The position numbers and the translations under genes were made by a program. From NCBI GenBank assembly GCA_003222155.1, contig QHUU01000097.1, positions 1 through 41,070 on the forward strand: DNA of 41,070 nt, written 5' to 3'. Origin of the DNA: Gemmatimonadota bacterium. GTDB lineage: Bacteria > Gemmatimonadota > Gemmatimonadetes > Gemmatimonadales > GWC2-71-9. Positions 749-37,705 of this stretch are shown here, piece by piece (the first letter of the stretch is position 1; every line of letters begins with the position of its first letter). The notes under the pieces are model-generated. The model searched no databases. It saw only the letters and a program-made list of their open reading frames with translations, and was not told the origin of the DNA.

Positions 749-3859
<3,111 letters not shown>

Positions 3860-27268: not shown

Positions 27269-28171
27269 ATGCTCACCACCCTGGCGACGCTGGCAGGCCT
27301 CGCGCTCGCGCAACAGACCGACACGACCGTCCCCGTGCGGGCGGGCGCCCGCCTCGAGGTGAACAACTTCGGCGGGGAGATCGCCGTGAAGACCTGGAGC
27401 AAGAGCGCGGTGCGGATCGCGGCGAGCCACTCGAGTCGCGACCACATCACGGTCGAGGCGTCCGACCAGGTGGTGCGGGTGAAGTCGGAGAGCCGGCGCG
27501 GCCCGTCCCAGGTCGTGGATTACGAGATCACCGTCCCCGCCGCCATGGCGCTCGCCCTGTCGGGCGTCTACACCGACATCTCGGTCGAGGGGAGCCAGGG
27601 GGAGATCACGGCCGAGACGGTCCAGGGCGCGATCAAGGTCTCGGGGGGCGCCGGCAACGTCTCGCTCAAGTCCGTGCAGGGCGACGTGACACTCGAGAAG
27701 GCGCGCGGCCGTATCGACTTGAGCAGCGTGAACGAGACCATCAAGGCGAGCCAGATCTCGGGCGACCTCTCGGCGGAGACCGTGAACGGCGACATCTCGC
27801 TCGTGCAGATCGAGTCCGCCAACGCCGAAGCGAACACGGTCAACGGCGACGTCGTGTACGACGGAACCATCAAGGACGGCGGCCGCTACCGCTTCTCGAC
27901 CCACGACGGCGATCTGCGCGTGTCGATCCCCGACAAGTCCGGCGTCGCCGTCTCGGTATCGACGTTCAACGGTGATTTCAGCGCCTGCTTCCCGGTCCAG
28001 CTGACCGGCAAGACCAAGCACCGTTTCAGCTTCACGATCGGCTCGGGGAGCGCCCGGCTCGAGCTCGAGTCGTTCGATGGCGACATCCGGCTGTGTCGTC
28101 CCGGCCAGCTGGCCAAGGACAAGGACCGGGACGAGGACAAGGACCACAACCAGCACCAGGAGGAGGAATGA
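27269..28171 (+). CDS. DUF4097 beta-solenoid-like exported protein, first copy
   Basis: A 300-residue exported protein with a short signal peptide (MLTTLATLAGLALAQQ). From about residue 25 it is a run of short beta repeats: LEVNNFGGEIAVKTW, GVYTDISVEGSQGEITAETVQGAIKVSGG, GDVTLEKARGRIDLSS, then GDLSAETVNGDISLVQI and ANTVNGDVVYDG. The VNGDI/VNGDV pattern is the hallmark of DUF4097 (putative adhesin) proteins. The tail is highly charged (KDKDRDEDKDHNQHQEEE). AGGAGG lies upstream, and the stop overlaps the next start (ATGA). Probably a product and target of the adjacent ECF system; role in surface adhesion or signalling is inferred. Confidence 0.88.
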   Translation: MLTTLATLAGLALAQQTDTTVPVRAGARLEVNNFGGEIAVKTWSKSAVRIAASHSSRDHITVEASDQVVRVKSESRRGPSQVVDYEITVPAAMALALSGVYTDISVEGSQGEITAETVQGAIKVSGGAGNVSLKSVQGDVTLEKARGRIDLSSVNETIKASQISGDLSAETVNGDISLVQIESANAEANTVNGDVVYDGTIKDGGRYRFSTHDGDLRVSIPDKSGVAVSVSTFNGDFSACFPVQLTGKTKHRFSFTIGSGSARLELESFDGDIRLCRPGQLAKDKDRDEDKDHNQHQEEE

Positions 28172-28953
28172 CCATGCGCTTGGCCACGCTCGGGCCGCTC
28201 GTCGTCGCGGCCGCCCTGCCGCTCGCCCGCCCGGCGGCCGCCCAGAGCGAGTTCCACTGGAAGGGCCAGATCGCCGCGGGCAAGACCATCGAGATCAAGG
28301 GCGTGAACGGCGACGTCAGCGCCGTCGCCGGCTCGGGCGACGTCGAGGTGACGGCCGTGAAGCACGCGCGCAAGAGCGACCCCGACGAGGTGAAAATCGA
28401 GGTCGTGCCGCACGAGGGCGGGGTCACCATCTGCGCCGTGTATCCCAGTTACAGCAGGCGTCAAAACACCTGCGAGCCGGCCGAAGGCGGCCACATGAAC
28501 ACGCAGGACAACGATGTGGTGGTGGACTTCACGGTACGGGTGCCCGCCGGCGTGCGGTTCGTCGGTAGGACGGTCAATGGCGCGATCGACGCCGCGAACC
28601 TCGGGGGCGACGTGGAGGCGAACACGGTCAACGGCAGCATCCATGTCGCGACCTCGGGCTACGCGCAGGCCTCGACGGTGAACGGCTCGATCACGGCGTC
28701 GCTGGGCCGCGCCCAGTGGACCGATGCGCTCGAGTTCCATACGGTGAATGGCGCGATCACGGTCGAGCTGCCGGCCAGCGTGTCGACGGAGGTGCGCGCC
28801 AGCACCGTGAACGGGAGCATCGAGACCGACTTCCCTCTCACGGTCACGGGTCGACTGGGCCCGCGGCGGGTGACGGGCACGATCGGGAGCGGAGGCCGAC
28901 GGCTGGCGCTCGAGACGGTGAACGGAAGCATCAGGCTTAGAAAGGCCAGTTAG
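28168..28953 (+). CDS. DUF4097 exported protein, second copy
   Basis: A 261-residue paralogue of the gene before it. Signal peptide about 1-26 (MRLATLGPLVVAAALPLARPAAA). Repeats follow: IEIKGVNGDVSAVAGSGDVEV, FVGRTVNGAIDAANLGGDVEANTVNGSIHVA, ASTVNGSITASLG, FHTVNGAITVELPA, RASTVNGSIETDFPL and LETVNGSIRLRKAS. The TVNGSI unit recurs at least six times, about every 20-25 residues, as in a beta-solenoid. Two cysteines (CAVY, CEPA) may form a disulfide. AGGAGG at 28161-28166 is only 1 nt before the ATG at 28168 but well spaced for the ATG at 28174, which would remove just two residues. It is the last gene of the ECF operon. Confidence 0.88.
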   Translation: MTMRLATLGPLVVAAALPLARPAAAQSEFHWKGQIAAGKTIEIKGVNGDVSAVAGSGDVEVTAVKHARKSDPDEVKIEVVPHEGGVTICAVYPSYSRRQNTCEPAEGGHMNTQDNDVVVDFTVRVPAGVRFVGRTVNGAIDAANLGGDVEANTVNGSIHVATSGYAQASTVNGSITASLGRAQWTDALEFHTVNGAITVELPASVSTEVRASTVNGSIETDFPLTVTGRLGPRRVTGTIGSGGRRLALETVNGSIRLRKAS

Positions 28954-29564: not shown

Positions 29565-32500
29565 GTGGTGCTGCGGGAACTTCTCACCCGCTCCGAGCAG
29601 ATCGATGATCTTCGCCACCTCTTTGGGGCGCTCGGGTTTCAAGCGGCGTGGGAGCACGTGCCGCCCGGGCCCTGGCTCGGCACGGCGCCGGTGGAGGCCG
29701 CGGGCGTCGTGCGGGCGGCGCTGGTGGCGCGGCACGACGCGTTCCGCGTGTTCGCGCTCGAGGCGCGCGATCCCGAGCGCGCGGTGCGGGCGGCGGCGCA
29801 GCGGCTCGCGGCGCACGCCGAGCGGGGCCTCGCGTGCGCGCTGGGTGCGGCACCGCGCCGGCTGCTGTGCGCCAGCTGGCGCGCGGCGGCGCGGGGACCG
29901 GCCATACGGGTCGCCGCCATTCCGCTCGAGCGGCCCCCCGGCAGCTCGCTCGAGACGCTGGAGCGATTCAGCCCGCGGCCGCGCGAGACGGCACTGGCGC
30001 TCAGCCTGCGTGTGGGCGAGGCGCTCGCGAGCGAGGCGGTCACACCACGTTTTTTCCGGGCGTTCCGCGCCACGCTCGAGCGCCTGACCGATCGGCTGAC
30101 CACCCCGCGGGGCCGGGCCGAGCGACACGCCCTCGCCTTGACCGCGTTCACGCGGGTGCTGTTCCTCTACTTCGTCCAGGGCAAAGGGTGGCTGGACGGC
30201 GACCGCCATTACCTGATCCGCAAGTTCGACGACTGCGTCGCCGCGCGGCGGCCGTTTCACCGCCGGGTGCTCGACCCGCTGTGCTTCGGGGCGCTCAACC
30301 GCCCCGCCACCGACCGCTCCAGCGCGGCCCGCGCGCTCGGGCGGCTGCCGTTCCTGAACGGCGGCCTGTTCGAGCCCACCGTCCTCGAGCGGCGCCACGG
30401 CGCCGCGCGGTGGAGCAACGCCGACTGGCGCGACGCGTTCGACGACCTGCTGGAGCGGTTCCACTTCTCGGCGCGCGAGACCGACGACGGCGACGTGGTC
30501 GCCCCCGACATGCTGGGTCGGGTGTTCGAGGGCGTGATGGACCCGGCCGAGCGGCGCGCCAGCGGCAGCTACTACACGCCCGCGGCGCTGGTGCGGGAGA
30601 TCGTGCGCGCCGGGCTCGAGGCCGTGCTCGTCCACCGGCTCGGGCTCGCCCCGGCTGTCGCCGAGGTTTGGATCCATCGGGGCGAGCCGCCGGAGCGAGC
30701 GCCCGACCTGCGGTGCCTCACCGTACTCGATCCGGCGGTGGGCTCGGGGGCGTTTCTGCTCGGCGCGCTCGAGGAGCTCACCCGGCTGCGGTGCGCGACG
30801 GGCGAGGGGCCGGCGTGCGCCGTGCGACGCGACGTGGTGGCACACTCACTATTCGGCGTCGATCTGAGCCTCACCGCGGTGCGGCTCACCGAGCTGCGGC
30901 TGTGGCTCGCCTTGATCGCGGACGTGAGCGTCGATCAGAACGACCGGGAGCTAGCCGCCATCGCGCCGCTACCGAACCTGGACGGGCAGGTGCGCCAGGG
31001 GGACGCGCTCGTCGACCCGCTCACGCTCGCCCGGGCGCTGGGCGGCGCGCCGGCGCCCGCTGCCCCGGGGCCCGAGCTCGAGCGGTTGGGCAGCGCCCGG
31101 CGCACCCTGTTCAGTCTGGCGGGTGCGGCGAAGCGGGACGCGCTCGCCGCGCTCGCCCGGGCCGAGGCCGCGCTCGCCCGGGGGTTGTTTCGGGCGGCGG
31201 TGGCGGCGCTGGAGCGGCGCGGGGGGGAGCTGATCGCGGCGGCGAAGGACCGCGACCTGTTCGGCCGCCGGCGAGGGCTCACGACCGACGAGCGCGCCTT
31301 GCTGCGGCGGCTGCGCGCGAGCCGGCGTGAGCTGCGAGCCGCCGCGGCACGGCTCGAGCGCGAAGGCGGCGCACCGTTCTTCGCGTTCGAGTCGCACTTC
31401 GGCGATGTACTGGCGCGCGGCGGGTTCGACCTCGTGGCCGGAAATCCCCCGTGGGTGCGCGGCGAGCGGGTCCCCGTGCGCGTGCGGGAAGCGCTCACCA
31501 CACGGTACGCGACGTGGCGACCGGCGCGGGGCCGCGGGTTCGCCCATCTGCCGGACCTGGCCGTCGCCTTCGTGGAGCGCGCGCTCGAGCTGGCGGCGCC
31601 CGGCGGCACCGCCGCGCTGCTCGTTCCCGCCAAGCTCGCCTCGAGCGGCTATGCCGAGCCGCTGCGCCGCCGACTGGCCGAAGGCGCGCGGGTCGAGCGC
31701 GTGGCACCGATGCCGGCGGGAAGTGCGTTCGCGGCGGCGGTGTATCCCATGGTGCTCGTCACCACGCGAGCCGAGCCGACGGGGCGCGAGCAGGTCGCTA
31801 CGGCCCTCGGGGCGAGGAGCACTACACCCTTGATCCCGCAGCGCGCACTCGCCGGCGACGGCCCGTGGATCCTGGCGCGCGACGCGGTCCGGGTGGCGCG
31901 GCAGCTCGGGGCGAGCTGCCCGCGAGTGGGCGAGCGGTGGAGACCGCAGCTCGGCGTAAAGACGGGCGCGGACGATGTGTTTCTGAGCGCCCAACCCGGC
32001 GCGGCCACCCGACCCGCGGTCCGGGGCCGCGATCTGGGGCCGTGGCGCGCCACGCCCCGCATCCACCTGCTGTGGACCCACGCGCCCGACGGCCGGCCGC
32101 TCGCCCGCCTGCCGCCCGAGCTCGCCGCGGCGCTCGCACCGCACCTGGATCGGCTGGGCCGCCGCAGCGACTACCGCGCGGGGCCGGCCTGGCAGCTGTT
32201 TCGCACAGCCCTCGCCTACGCGCCCTGCCGCGTGGTCTGGCCCGATCTCGCGCGCCGGCTCGCGGCCGTGGTGCCCGCCCCGGAGCTCGTGCCGCTGAAC
32301 ACCGTGTACGGGATCGCTACGCGCGAGCTGGACGACGCATACGCACTCGCGGCGCTGTTCAACTCGCGCTGGCTCACGGCGCTGGCGCGGCTGCACGCCG
32401 ATCCGGCGCGCGGCGGGTTCCGGCGCTTCAACGCCCGCGTGGTGCGGGGCCTGCCGCTGCCCGTCACCAGTCTGGCGGTGTGGCGCGCCCTCGCCGACCA

Positions 32501-32600
32501 GGGGCGGCGCGGCGAGTCCGACGACGACGTGATCGCGGACCTGTACCAGCTCGATGCCGCCGACCGCCGTGCACTGGCAGCCGCCCCGGATCCTCTCTGA
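29565..32600 (+). CDS. Eco57I-like gamma-class adenine DNA methyltransferase, large
   Basis: A 1011-residue protein predicted to methylate adenine-N6 in DNA. Domain order: an N-terminal region of unknown fold (1-180), a helical part with [22 protein letters not shown] (about 195-215) and [11 protein letters not shown], then the methyltransferase with [15 protein letters not shown] (about 335), SAM motif [19 protein letters not shown] (about 387) and the catalytic NPPW ([13 protein letters not shown], about 627). A long Ala/Arg-rich helical insert separates the two motifs. The C-terminal 250 residues ([48 protein letters not shown]) look like a target-recognition domain. No PD-(D/E)xK nuclease motif is evident. 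GTG start with AGGGG upstream. Overlaps the helicase gene by 47 nt. Resembles DrmMI or type IIG enzymes. Confidence 0.88.
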
Positions 32601-34878
32601 GCACCTCGCCCCGCTCCCCGAGCCGCTCGCCTGCCTGCTCTCACCGGGGCCGGTCGACGCGCCGGCGGCGGTCGCGGCGCTCGGCGCGCGGGCGCTGCTC
32701 GACCTGGCGCCGCTCGGGTCAGAAGGGCGGACGCCGTGGCCGGCGTGGCTCGCCCCGCACCAGGTCCCCGCCGCGGAGCGGCTGCGCGCTCTGCTGGTGC
32801 GCTACGGCGGGGGGCTGCTCGCCGACGCGCCGGGCCTCGGCAAGTCGTACGTCGCGCTGGCCGTCGCGCTCGCGTTCGGAGAACGATTCGCCCTGGTAGT
32901 GCCCGCCGTATTGGTGGACCAGTGGCGCGGCCTGTTGGAGCGGTACGAGAGCGACGCCCCGATCGTCACTCATGAGTTCCTCAGCATGCGCCGTTGCCGC
33001 CCCTTGCCGCCCTCTGCCGCCCGTTGCCGCCTGTTTGTCGTCGACGAGGCCCATCGCTTCCGCAACCCCGGCACCAATCGCTACCGCGCGCTGGCGCGGC
33101 TCGTGGTGCGTGCGAAGGTCCTGCTCGTCACGGCCACACCGGTCCACAATCGCGTCGGCGACTTGTGCCACCTGCTGCGGCTGTTCCTGCGCGACCACGC
33201 GCTGACGGCCCTCGGCGTTCCCTCACTACGCTGCGCGGCGCGGGGCGACCGGGACGCGGACCCCGCGGCGTTGCGGGCCGCCGCCGCCCGGTTGTGTGTG
33301 TCCCGCTCGCGCGAGCGGGCGCGGACGGGCTGGAGCGCCGGCCCGGTCACGCTCTCGTTCCCGGCACGCGCCAGCGGCGCGGTGGTTCGAATCGGCGCAG
33401 CGTCGGATGCGCTGCTCGAGCGGCTCGTCGCCGGCATCGTCCAGCTCGACTGCGGTGGAGAGGCGGCGGCCCTGTTCCGGCTGTTGCTCTTGTCGCAGCT
33501 CGCCTCGAGCCTGCCCGCGTTTCGCGCGAGCCTGGGACGTCACGAGGAATGGCTCGAGCTCGGCCTCGCCGCCACGGTGCAGGGTCGTTCACTCACCCGA
33601 CGGGACTTCCGGCGGCTCTTCCCCACGGGGCAAGACGATCTGCAGCTCGCGCTCCTCCCCCTGATCCTGCCTGCCGGCACGAGCACGGTGAGTGATGCCG
33701 ACCGCGAGACGGTGCAGGGCCTGCGCCGGCTCGCCGTGCCCGGCCCCGACCCGAAGGCCGACGCGCTGGCGCGCATGCTCGCCGGGCGCGGCGGCAAGAC
33801 GATCGTGTTCGTGCAACCGCGCGCCACTGTCCGGCACCTGCTCCGCCGCCTCCACGGCCACCGCGTCGCCGCGGTCATGGGCGATCGGGGGTGGTTCGGC
33901 GGCGAGCGGTCGACGCGGGCGGACGTGCTGCGGGCGTTCGCACCTGCGGCCCAGGGCGTCCCCGGGCCCGCGGCCGCGCTCCAGACCGATGTCCTGCTCG
34001 CGACCGATCTCTTGAGCGAAGGGCTGAACCTCCAGGATGCCGTGCGGGTGATCCACTACGACGTGCCCTGGAGCCCCGCCCGGCTGGCGCAGCGCGTGGG
34101 CCGGATCGATCGCGCCGGCTCGCCGCACGCTCACATCGAGACGGTGACGTTCCTCCCGCCGCCCTCGCTCGCCGGCGCGCTCGCGATCGAGCGCCGCTGG
34201 CTCGCCAAGGCACGGGCGCAGTGGCAGACCGGTACCGCGCAGATCGAGCTGGCGCACGGCGGCACGGCCGCCGCGTTCGACTGGTGCGACCGGCTGCAGG
34301 AGCTCGCAGCACACGCCGGCAAGCCTGCCGCGTCCGGCGCCTGCGCCGCGGTCGCCGCGGCGGAGCGGGCGGTGGTGCTGCTGGTGCGCCTTGCAGATCA
34401 GGTGGAAGCCGTGGTCGTGACGGCGAGCGCGGTGCGGAGCGATCCGGCGCGGGCCACCGAGCTGCTCGAGCGTGCCGCGGGCTCCCGGCCGGTGCCGCTC
34501 GACCGCGCCGGGCTCGAGCTGGCGATCCGCCGGGCGGCGCCGCTCGTGCGCGGCCGACTCGACGCGATCGAGCGGGCCCAGTGGCGCGCCGCCGACCGCG
34601 ACCGGCTCACCCGGCGGCTCATCCCCTGGGTGCTCGCGGCCGCCCGCCGCGCCGCCGCGCGGGGCCGCCACACCGAGCTCGCCCGCCTCGATGCACTCGT
34701 GTCGCGGCTGGCGCTCGGGATGACGGCCGGGGAGGAGGTGCTGCTCGACGAGCTGCTCGGGCGCCGCGCACCGCTGACGGTGCGGGACGTGCTGGCGTGG
34801 CACCAGCGGCTGGCGCCTCTCGGGGGCGTGCCCGATCCTCCCACGGTTCTGCTGGAGGCGGCGCTCGTGCTCGGCTGA
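32554..34878 (+). CDS. HepA/SNF2-type helicase paired with the methyltransferase
   Basis: A 774-residue superfamily 2 ATPase. Motif [20 protein letters not shown] (about 91-109), motif Ia [18 protein letters not shown], motif [17 protein letters not shown] (DEAH near 164), motif [13 protein letters not shown] (about 190). The second RecA domain has [19 protein letters not shown] (about 414), [40 protein letters not shown] (about 482-521). The C-terminal 200 residues are helical and unrecognised. SEGLNLQ and QRVGRIDR are typical of RapA/HepA-like proteins. The Walker A precursor reads DAPGLGK rather than the usual DExGLGK. The stretch before DEAH ([14 protein letters not shown]) is encoded by a simple repeat. 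ATG at 32554 lies inside the methyltransferase gene; GTG at 32569 is an alternative. Strongly coupled to it, implying one complex or pathway. Confidence 0.88.
32989..33032. repeat. GCCGCCC(T)TTGCC simple repeat in the helicase gene
   Basis: Imperfect array of about 12-bp units (CCGTTGCCGCCC, CTTGCCGCCCTC, TGCCGCCCGTTG). It encodes [12 protein letters not shown] directly before the DEAH box, where related helicases have a short variable strand. Confidence 0.65.
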
Positions 34879-34961
34879 GGGCTCACTCGTGATGCCAGTA
34901 GCGCGAGGACGGTCTCGAAATGGTGCATGCGGTTTGGGGCCTCCCAAAGTTACCTTCCGGC

Positions 34962-35609
34962 GTGGCGCTCACGACTTTCCTGTTCGACCTGGACGGCACG
35001 CTTATCGACTCGATCGAGCTGATCCTCCGGTCTTACCGCCACACCATGCGCACGCACCGCGGCGATGAGCCCGCGGACGACATCTGGATGGCGGGGCTGG
35101 GCACCCCGCTGTGGGTGCAGTTCCGTCGCTTCACCGACGACCCGGCCGAGATCGACGCGATGGTCGCGACGTACCGCGCGTACAACCTCGCGCACCACGA
35201 CGAGCTGGTGCGGCCCTACGACGGCATCGTCGAGGCGGTACGGGCGCTGCGGGAGCGGGGCCGCCCCCTGGGTCTCGTGACGAGCAAGATGCGGAGCGGG
35301 GCGATCCGGGGGCTCGTGCGCGCGTCGCTCGAGGACGCGTTCGACGTGGTCGTGGGAGCGGACGAGGTCACACACCCCAAGCCCCATCCCGAGCCGGTGC
35401 GCCTGGCGCTCGAGCGGCTGCACCGGCCCGCGACGGGCGCCGTGTTCATCGGCGACTCGCGCCACGATATCGAATGCGGCCGCGCGGCCGGCGTCAAAAC
35501 CGCCGCCGCGCTGTGGGGACCCTTCGACCGGTCCCACCTCGAGGACCTCGCGCCCGATTACTGGCTGGAACGGCCCGCGGACCTCAGTTTACTGGCGGTC
35601 GACGACTGA
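34962..35609 (+). CDS. HAD-superfamily hydrolase, phosphoglycolate-phosphatase-like
   Basis: A 215-residue HAD phosphatase. Motif I TFLFDLDGTLIDSIE (nucleophile Asp near residue 9), a helical cap (subclass I), motif II GLVTSKM, the Lys in VTHPKPHPEPV (motif III) and motif IV VFIGDSRHDIECGRAAGVKT. Close in style to Gph/PpaX enzymes that hydrolyse small phosphomonoesters or pyrophosphate. GTG at 34962 is chosen since the family starts within five residues; the frame is open back to 34920. The stop is in a GACGACT repeat. 22 bp separate it from the aminotransferase. Confidence 0.9.
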   Translation: MALTTFLFDLDGTLIDSIELILRSYRHTMRTHRGDEPADDIWMAGLGTPLWVQFRRFTDDPAEIDAMVATYRAYNLAHHDELVRPYDGIVEAVRALRERGRPLGLVTSKMRSGAIRGLVRASLEDAFDVVVGADEVTHPKPHPEPVRLALERLHRPATGAVFIGDSRHDIECGRAAGVKTAAALWGPFDRSHLEDLAPDYWLERPADLSLLAVDD

Positions 35610-35631: not shown

Positions 35632-36756
35632 TTGCGGTTCGTCCCCTTCGAGCTGGAGCGCTGGCAGAGCACCTGGGAAAACCGGGTGCGGTACAACCTA
35701 TCCGAGTCGGGCGTGCATCCGCTTTCGATTCAGGAGCTGCTCGACCTGGCGGGAGCGTCTCCGGAGCCTCTGCTCAACGTGCGACTCGGCTACAGTCAGT
35801 CCAACGGCACCGACCTGCTGCGGAGCAGGATCGCCGCGTTGTACCCGGGCGTGTCGCCCGAGCAGATCTTGGTCACGACCGGCAGCGCCGAAGCGAACTT
35901 CGTCGTCTGCTGGCGGCTGATCGAGCCGGGCGACAGTGTAGCCGTCATGCTGCCGAACTATCTCCAGACCTGGGGGCTCGCGCAGAACTTCGGGGCGGAC
36001 GTGCGCGGCTTCGCGCTGCGCGCCGAGGCGCAGTGGGAGCCGGCGCTCGAGGAAATGCGGGGCGCCATCGCACCGGGCACGAAGCTGGTCGTCGTGACCA
36101 ATCCGCACAATCCGACGGGACACGTGCTCTCGGGGGAGATGCGAAAGGCCATCGTGCGTCGCGCGGCGGAGGTGGGTGCCTGGCTGCTCGCGGACGAGGT
36201 GTACCAGGGTGCGGAGCGTGAGGGGCCCGCGACCGCGTCGTTCTGGGGCAGCTACGAGCGCGTGATCGTCGTGAACGGCCTCTCGAAGGCGTACGGCCTG
36301 CCGGGCCTGCGGATCGGCTGGGTGGTGGGGCCACCGGGGTTCTCCGGCGAAGCGTGGGCCCGGCACGACTACACCACCATCGGGCCGGCGGGCGCGAGCG
36401 ATCACCTCGCCGCCGTGGCGCTCGAGCCGCGGGTACGCGAGAAAGTGCTCGAGCGCACGCGCCGTATCCTCCGGTCCAACTACCCGGTGATCGAGCAGTG
36501 GCTCAAGCGCTTCGGTGACACGTTCAGCTGGCACGCCCCGCAGGCCGGAGCGATCTGCCTGGTGAAGTATCGCCAGGGGATCAGCGCCCTCGACCTGGTG
36601 GAGAAGATGCGGGCCGAGCACGGCGTGCTGCTCGTGCCGGGGGACCACTTCGGGCTGCCGCACCACATACGATTCGGATTCGGCGAGGAGCTGCACCACT
36701 TCGAGGCGGCGCTCGCGGAGACGGAGAGGGGCCTGAAGCGCGTGTTCACCGACTGA
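35632..36756 (+). CDS. PLP-dependent class I/II aminotransferase
   Basis: A 374-residue fold-type I enzyme. Seen: YNLSESGVHPLSIQELL, LGYSQSNGTDLLRSRIA, VTTGSAEANFVVCW, the cofactor-ring segment VVVTNPHNPTGHVLS, LLADEVYQGAE with the Asp binding the pyridine nitrogen, and the Schiff-base Lys in VNGLSKAYGLPGLRIGW. The Arg of HIRFGFGEE binds the substrate carboxylate. Family members include aspartate and aromatic aminotransferases; substrate unknown. TTG start at 35632 with GGAGAA 7 nt upstream. 1 bp separates it from the ornithine-cyclodeaminase-family gene, so the two probably act in one amino-acid pathway. Confidence 0.9.
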   Translation: MRFVPFELERWQSTWENRVRYNLSESGVHPLSIQELLDLAGASPEPLLNVRLGYSQSNGTDLLRSRIAALYPGVSPEQILVTTGSAEANFVVCWRLIEPGDSVAVMLPNYLQTWGLAQNFGADVRGFALRAEAQWEPALEEMRGAIAPGTKLVVVTNPHNPTGHVLSGEMRKAIVRRAAEVGAWLLADEVYQGAEREGPATASFWGSYERVIVVNGLSKAYGLPGLRIGWVVGPPGFSGEAWARHDYTTIGPAGASDHLAAVALEPRVREKVLERTRRILRSNYPVIEQWLKRFGDTFSWHAPQAGAICLVKYRQGISALDLVEKMRAEHGVLLVPGDHFGLPHHIRFGFGEELHHFEAALAETERGLKRVFTD

Positions 36757-36757
36757 C

Positions 36758-37705
36758 ATGCGCGTCGTGCCGCTCGAGGCGTTCCGGGACAAGGTCTCGT
36801 TCGCCGTGGCGGTCGGCGCGGTGGAGCGGGGCTTCCGGGCGCTCGCGCTGGGGGAGGCGGTGCTCCCCGACCCGATGGTGGTGGAGCTCCCGGCGGAGCG
36901 GGCGGAAGTACACGTGAAGGGAGCGCATCTCAAGGGCGCGCGCCACATCGTGCTCAAGGTGGCGACGGGCTTCTACGAGAACCGCGCCCGCGGCCTGCCG
37001 TCCGGGGACGGTCTGTTTCTGCTGCTCGACGCCGCTACGGGGGTGCCGGCGCTGCTGCTCGAAGAGCACGGCTATCTCACGGACTTCCGCACCGCCGCCG
37101 CCGTGGCGCTCACGCTGAAGTATCTCGCGCCCAGGGGCGCGCACGAGGCCCTGCTGGTGGGCGCGGGGGCCCTCGCCCGGCTCACGGCGCGCGCCATGGT
37201 GGCTCAGATGCCCCTCGCCCGGCTCACGCTGTGGAATCGCACGGCCGAGCGCGCCGGGCAGCTCGCCCGGGAGCTCGCGCAGGTGGTGGAGACGCGCATC
37301 GCGCCCGCCCTCGAGAGCGCGGTGCGTGACGCCCGTGTGATCGTGACCGCGACCGCCAGCACGACCCCGCTGATCAGGGATTCGTGGGTGGCGCCCGGTA
37401 CGCACGTCACATCGGTGGGGACCGGGAGCCCCGAGAAGATCGAGCTCGAGCCCGCGCTGCTGGCGCGCGCCGACAAGCTGGTGGCCGATCGCGTGTCCCA
37501 GACGGAGCGCTACGGCAACCTGCACCACGCCGTCGCCGCTGGCGTCGCCACGCGCAAGCGGGTGTACGCGGAGCTCGGTGATCTCGCGGCTGGCCGGCGT
37601 CCCGGGCGGGAGACCCCGGACGAGATCACCGTGGCCGATCTCACCGGGGTGGGCGTGCAGGACGCCGCGATCGCGCAGGCCGTGGTGGAGGCTTTAGGCC
37701 TGTGA
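36758..37705 (+). CDS. Ornithine cyclodeaminase / mu-crystallin family protein
   Basis: A 315-residue NAD(P)-binding enzyme. Seen: VHVKGAHLKGARHIVLKVATGFYENRARGLPSGDGLFLLLDAATGVPALLLEEHGYLTDFRTAAAVALTLKYLAPRGAHEALLVGAGALARL, with the GxGxxA dinucleotide loop; then LWNRTAERAGQLA, VTATASTTPLI and a C-terminal ITVADLTGVGVQDAAIA. This is the mu-crystallin/OCD fold, whose members make proline from ornithine, reduce cyclic ketimines or dehydrate amino acids. Together with an aminotransferase, a ketimine or imino-acid reductase role is likely. ATG at 36758, 1 bp after the previous stop. Confidence 0.88.
   Translation: MRVVPLEAFRDKVSFAVAVGAVERGFRALALGEAVLPDPMVVELPAERAEVHVKGAHLKGARHIVLKVATGFYENRARGLPSGDGLFLLLDAATGVPALLLEEHGYLTDFRTAAAVALTLKYLAPRGAHEALLVGAGALARLTARAMVAQMPLARLTLWNRTAERAGQLARELAQVVETRIAPALESAVRDARVIVTATASTTPLIRDSWVAPGTHVTSVGTGSPEKIELEPALLARADKLVADRVSQTERYGNLHHAVAAGVATRKRVYAELGDLAAGRRPGRETPDEITVADLTGVGVQDAAIAQAVVEALGL

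Follow-up and report, generated by a model that had tools for sequence, protein, structure and literature searches.

An adenine methyltransferase and SNF2 ATPase gene pair conserved across an order of Gemmatimonadota

Two overlapping genes encoded as one unit

The 41,070-nt stretch analysed here (contig QHUU01000097.1 of the Gemmatimonadota assembly GCA_003222155.1, henceforth the window) carries two overlapping genes, one for a predicted N6-adenine DNA methyltransferase (MTase) and the other for a predicted SNF2-family ATPase or translocase (henceforth the helicase), whose positions and motifs are collected in Table 1. A first-pass annotation, made from the letters alone, had described an NPPW methyltransferase of 1011 residues and an SNF2 helicase of 774 residues overlapping by 47 nt and had taken them for a single unit; both open reading frames (ORFs) and the overlap were confirmed. 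The MTase matched the Pfam families Eco57I (8e-15) and N6_Mtase (9e-11), and the helicase matched Helicase_C (9e-18) and SNF2-rel_dom (1e-10). Pfam found no PLD or PD-(D/E)XK nuclease family in either protein, nor any other nuclease domain in the helicase. Both genes were present within one fetched locus in 46 genomes, on the same strand in every case (46/46), and the helicase frame opened upstream of the MTase stop in 43 of these loci (counted as open frames, not mapped starts), which supports the reading as one unit. Judged by the ratio of nonsynonymous to synonymous substitutions (dN/dS) within the genus, about 0.13–0.18 for the MTase and about 0.25–0.43 for the helicase, both genes are under purifying selection.

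The structure model of the window MTase (predicted local distance difference test score, pLDDT, 87.5) has CamA as its nearest solved structure (Z 29.6), followed by BrxX (26.1), M.BseCI (25.6) and MmeI (24.3). That of the helicase (pLDDT 82.7) matches SNF2 motors, with INO80 at the top (Z 20.3). The catalytic motifs of both enzymes are intact, the GxGK and DExH motifs of the helicase being invariant in 46/46 sequences, like those of the MTase in its own, slightly larger set (Table 1). The first-pass annotation had drawn attention to the DAPGLGK lead-in of the Walker A motif, in place of the usual DExGLGK. The lead-in is real but not peculiar, since the residue after the D varies throughout the family (A, D, P, S or G); distant relatives on plasmids (see below) have ADAVGLGK or ADSVGLGK.

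Table 1. Features of the MTase–helicase locus, in window coordinates.
Feature	Position	Strand	Basis
N6-adenine DNA methyltransferase (MTase), gamma class, Eco57I/BrxX-like, 1011 aa, GTG start	29565..32600	+	Pfam, structure model
N-terminal alpha/beta domain of the MTase, residues 1-155, evolving fast	29565..30029	+	model, alignment
MTase S-adenosylmethionine (SAM)-binding motif [10 protein letters not shown], pattern DPAxGSGAF	30729..30755	+	invariant 48/48
MTase motif IV NPPW, catalytic	31443..31454	+	invariant 48/48
Target-recognition region, residues 741-1000, with LGVKTGADD	31785..32564	+	boundaries estimated from model
MTase–helicase overlap, 47 nt	32554..32600	+	ORF coordinates
SNF2-family ATPase/translocase (helicase), 774 aa, ATG start	32554..34878	+	Pfam, structure model
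Walker A DAPGLGKS	32824..32847	+	alignment
Walker B DEAH	33043..33054	+	D, E, H invariant 46/46
Helicase motif [10 protein letters not shown]	34090..34113	+	alignment
HAD phosphatase, PpaX/Gph-like, 41 nt downstream of the pair	34920..35609	+	conserved neighbour

Distribution and inheritance

The survey of relatives, the close ones among which are Gemmatimonadetes metagenome-assembled genomes, covered 61 genomes (41 of high quality), and all helicase counts rest on these. The MTase was found in 57 of them (40 of the 41 of high quality) and the helicase in 56; given these counts and the low dN/dS, the pair is not a chance association. Of the 297 genomes in a wider sample of the phylum, all with a completeness of 85% or more, 182 had an MTase match. 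Within the window's own order, a group of soil bacteria that is probably Gemmatimonadales, the MTase was present in 154 of the 171 genomes sampled (~90%), normally as a single copy. Strong matches beyond the order came from family f9 and part of family f4 (f1, f2, f3, f4 and f9 are tool-assigned family labels), and the weak matches elsewhere in the phylum are probably other MTases.

Trees of the MTase and of the helicase, built from the 46 genomes, both recovered f1, f2, f3 and f9 as monophyletic, with f4 as an outgroup that was not resolved as one clade; the helicase tree did not recover the genus g30 as a monophyletic group. Path lengths in the two trees were correlated (Mantel r 0.91 overall, 0.98 within f1 and 0.87 within f2). 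Family labels, synteny and the mutual congruence of the trees point to vertical inheritance of the two genes together. No close copies on mobile elements came to light, the best plasmid match reaching 27% identity and phage matches 23–36% over partial stretches. One contig filed as viral (L189, IMGVR_UViG_3300003315_000001) has an overlapping MTase–helicase pair whose MTase is 36% identical to that of the window, and is possibly a misfiled chromosomal contig.

Relationship to named systems

Among PADLOC profiles, the MTase was nearest to DrmMI (best, 1e-26) and to type IIG MTases, and the helicase to DpdE and DrmD. The first-pass annotation had named DrmMI plus DrmD of class 1 DISARM (defence island system associated with restriction-modification) as the nearest known pairing; this is borne out at profile level, with DpdE alongside, but the scores are far below the NCBIfam cut-offs, at 101.7 bits against 500 for DpdE and 90.9 against 610 for DrmD (NF038317), while the PglX models gave the MTase at most 33.9 bits against cut-offs of 400–900. 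By these scores the pair is not a member of DISARM, BREX (bacteriophage exclusion) or Dpd, and no profile places it squarely in a named system. None of drmA, drmB, drmC, Res, BrxC and PglZ was seen in the flanks (the rest of the genome was not searched), and none of 10 window neighbours matched PADLOC at 1e-5, so that the earlier statement that these genes and a nuclease are missing holds for the flanks. A remnant of class 1 DISARM, with drmA, drmB and drmC lost or located elsewhere, would explain why an MTase and an SNF2-like helicase have DrmMI and DrmD among their best profile matches. We regard it as very improbable, given that the DrmD cut-off is missed with DpdE scoring higher, that the core DISARM genes are absent from the flanks seen, and that in the plasmid relatives examined the MTase is accompanied by a helicase-related gene (mostly PLD-SNF2) and not by drmAB.

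The pair resembles BREX in having an adenine MTase without a nuclease of its own, which superposes on BrxX (PglX) over residues 158–1004; it differs in falling short of the PglX cut-offs and in having no PglZ or BrxC visible nearby. Hma, a DUF499-centred group related to BREX, also combines an N6-MTase with a Swi2/Snf2 helicase, which in its type-2 form is an HKD-helicase, whereas the window pair has no HKD domain and no DUF499 ATPase gene alongside; no AAA+ or DUF499 gene was detected among the scanned window neighbours. These DUF499-centred MTase–helicase systems, including the HKD-helicase type, were described in a 2026 BREX survey (PMC12839542), the main text of which makes no mention of Gemmatimonadota. 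We found no paper on the present MTase–SNF2 pair in the open-licence literature.

Type IIG and IIL restriction-modification enzymes differ in their N-terminal PD-(D/E)XK nuclease site, of which the aligned N-termini here show no E-x-K motif. The structural match to CamA of Clostridioides difficile covers 494 residues of the MTase core, with nothing aligned to residues 1–312 of the window protein. CamA is an orphan MTase conserved in its species and is not known to have an SNF2 partner. With core orphan MTases of the CcrM or CamA kind the window MTase shares near-universal presence in its clade, apparently vertical inheritance (by family labels, synteny and congruence) and a stable recognition domain.

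Plasmid relatives and the fate of the nuclease

Distant relatives, with MTase and helicase adjacent or a few genes apart, occur on plasmids of haloarchaea, Thermococcus, Thermus, Deinococcus and Nostoc, scoring about 1e-70 to 1e-131 (MTases) and about 1e-50 to 1e-84 (helicases) against the family profiles. Their helicases, of about 1080–1270 aa, begin with a PLD-type domain (Pfam-confirmed in Natrinema and Nostoc), in which the H and K of the HxK motif are invariant in the 8/8 N-termini aligned. These modules (PADLOC candidate C3a139 'HKD+Snf2'; Natrinema pNVE500, Nostoc pn2, Haladaptatus) bring the same two enzyme types together in one locus; they differ from the window pair in the N-terminal PLD nuclease with its HxK and in being plasmid-borne and scattered over phyla. 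On the Nostoc plasmid pn2 (L177:8494-19331), the MTase and PLD-helicase are closely followed by genes for an EVE-domain protein, a deoxynucleoside kinase and viperin, in what is likely a defence island. On the Deinococcus radiophilus plasmid pRadio5 (L178:6740-15116), MTase, DUF262 protein and helicase are found together amid several toxin-antitoxin pairs.

In three loci of f4, a sister family, a separate small gene (~190 aa) stands between MTase and helicase (L150:4232-4810, L153:5066-5620 and L154:5613-6305). It is a PLD remnant: hhalign pairs it with the PLD profile of the plasmid relatives at a probability of 97% (E 8.5e-11), and other residues stand in place of the catalytic His and Lys of HxK. 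No PLD domain was found in the helicases of f1 to f3, that of the window included. The f9 helicase is extended at its N-terminus by a segment of uncertain origin; as a candidate PLD remnant it looked alike by eye but reached only 0.6% in profile comparison and 10% against the f4 gene, a resemblance that is only suggestive. The simplest account of this series would be a stepwise loss of nuclease activity from a PLD-bearing ancestor, a direction that we infer. Both active sites have been retained and the parts for nuclease activity lost or inactivated, so that methylation together with ATP-driven tracking along DNA is probably what the pair conserves.

A second possible seat of a nuclease is the N-terminus of the MTase. 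Structural matches to BrxX and MmeI begin at residue 156–158, and residues 156–1008 superpose on MmeI 158–893, which leaves residues 1–155 in the position of the MmeI nuclease domain; going by the model, this segment may have nuclease ancestry. Compared with PDB sequences the N-terminal domain had no match, and the structural alignment rows of the MTase model spanned mostly residues 157–997. Classical restriction, by a nuclease acting from elsewhere or one hidden in these residues or in the helicase C-terminus, would fit this position and the extra effectors of some relatives, such as the DUF262 protein of D. radiophilus. It seems to us distinctly unlikely, because the aligned MTase N-termini have no E-x-K motif, neither protein contains a recognizable PLD or PD-(D/E)XK family, and the two segments in question are the least conserved parts of the pair.

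Recognition domain and methylation motif

Sequence identity falls almost as fast in the target-recognition region as in the catalytic domain, without collapse between relatives at any depth (between genera of f1, 0.44 against 0.55; in f2, 0.50–0.55 against 0.53–0.57). Divergence in step with the catalytic domain is what would be expected if specificity were conserved. The only methylome found for the group, that of Gemmatirosa kalamazoonensis KBS708, has the motifs RGATCY, ATGCAC and CCAGN7TCA (PMC3974934; data in GEO GSE55390), and the LGVKCGCND of the KBS708 MTase is a variant common to other members of the set, not a degenerate one. An assignment of ATGCAC to the core MTase by elimination was withdrawn, as the KBS708-like genome also has an MmeI-family MTase that better fits an asymmetric 6-mer. 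No PF01555 or PF02086 match was found in that genome, which leaves RGATCY without an owner, and the motif of the core MTase could be RGATCY, ATGCAC or neither. The representation of 6-mers near the loci reflected only generic palindrome avoidance and was uninformative on the motif. The same genome (G110) contains a second MTase–helicase pair (L187:6935-11775; C2, about 5.03 Mb), in which a 924-aa MmeI-family MTase is directly followed by a 689-aa Res/DEAD-type helicase.

Genomic neighbourhood

The flanking families inspected at 37 loci are housekeeping or unnamed. The 10 window neighbours include a glycosyltransferase, DUF4097 proteins, a four-helix-bundle protein, the HAD phosphatase, an aminotransferase and an ornithine cyclodeaminase-like protein. 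The HAD gene adjoins the pair in 21 of the 37 loci, usually downstream, across f1, f2, f3 and f9, as a conserved neighbour with at most a putative functional link to the pair. Two tandem DUF4097 genes (toastrack, LiaG-like) lie upstream of the pair (window 27269-28953), and DUF4097 genes occur near it in other families too, on either side. Beyond the HAD gene (window 35632-37705), an aminotransferase resembling capreomycidine synthase or GntC, below cut-offs, precedes the ornithine cyclodeaminase-like gene; the two are possibly an amino-acid modification pair. At the other end, window 749-3859 encodes a 1036-aa protein in which a serine/threonine protein kinase is joined to tetratricopeptide repeats.

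A chromosomal role or a barrier

The reading that we favour, and to which we give an even chance, is that a restriction-type module of MTase and SNF2 translocase shed its nuclease activity and was retained as a core pair of the order, passed on vertically, normally in single copy and with a mainly chromosomal role. The MTase would methylate one adenine of a lineage-conserved sequence motif across the host chromosome, and the SNF2 motor, presumably produced from the same transcript, would track along duplex DNA and act either on the MTase itself or on the state of methylation, with no DNA cutting, whether by the pair or by a nuclease from elsewhere. Rather than serving in accessory phage defence, the pair would now act mainly on the chromosome, by setting an epigenetic mark or in maintaining the genome, in the manner of CamA or CcrM.

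Another reading, possible but to our minds of lower probability, is that of a lineage-fixed barrier that does not cleave, in which the MTase marks self DNA, the motor blocks replication or expression of unmodified incoming DNA, and the core status of the pair reflects a dependence of the order on it. BREX, which stops phage without obvious cleavage, offers an analogy, and every relative known to have this architecture is a defence or restriction module (PMC12839542). The MTase N-terminus and helicase C-terminus evolve fast, and the pair is missing more often from small genomes. Defence genes, however, are usually patchy and horizontally moved, whereas this pair is single-copy and syntenic with congruent trees, its recognition domain shows no collapse of identity between relatives, and its neighbours are not defence genes. 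We prefer the chromosomal role to the barrier because the pair is near-universal and syntenic and its recognition domain stable.

Several observations weigh against this preference. The MTase is lacking in 17 of the 171 genomes of the order, and in f2 the genomes without it are smaller (median 2.6 against 3.8 Mb, p 7e-5), a pattern of loss suggesting that in reduced genomes the pair is dispensable and barrier- or accessory-like. The helicase evolves fast, above all at its C-terminus, as parts facing invaders do; this and the loss in small genomes are the main points in favour of the barrier. Linkage is relaxed in one genome (G051), where the two genes are 12 kb apart, and in the KBS708-like genome the MTase is present with no helicase within the 16-kb locus fetched. 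No nuclease gene was seen beside the pair, nucleases elsewhere in the genome not having been searched for, and the case for verticality is built on family labels, synteny and congruence within the pair.

The earlier suggestion of an uncharacterised defence system stands in so far as the pair belongs to no named system; an accessory nature fits poorly with genes that are near-universal, usually single-copy, co-inherited and set among housekeeping neighbours. The same annotation had considered that homologues might turn out to be housekeeping singletons, and this is largely what we see, except that they are kept as a pair.

MTase–SNF2 modules have been described in mobile defence systems, and here one appears to be core equipment of a whole bacterial order. 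More tentatively, and with some doubt on our part, the pair could be a restriction system domesticated into a housekeeping module of the entire order, coupling an adenine mark to a dedicated SNF2 motor on the host chromosome; if so, it would be the equivalent, in bacteria, of a chromatin remodeller working with a DNA methylase. The pair would then offer a concrete case for how restriction systems become domesticated, and it raises the question of how an SNF2 motor acts on methylated DNA if there is no cleavage, which is open to testing since the order has cultured members.

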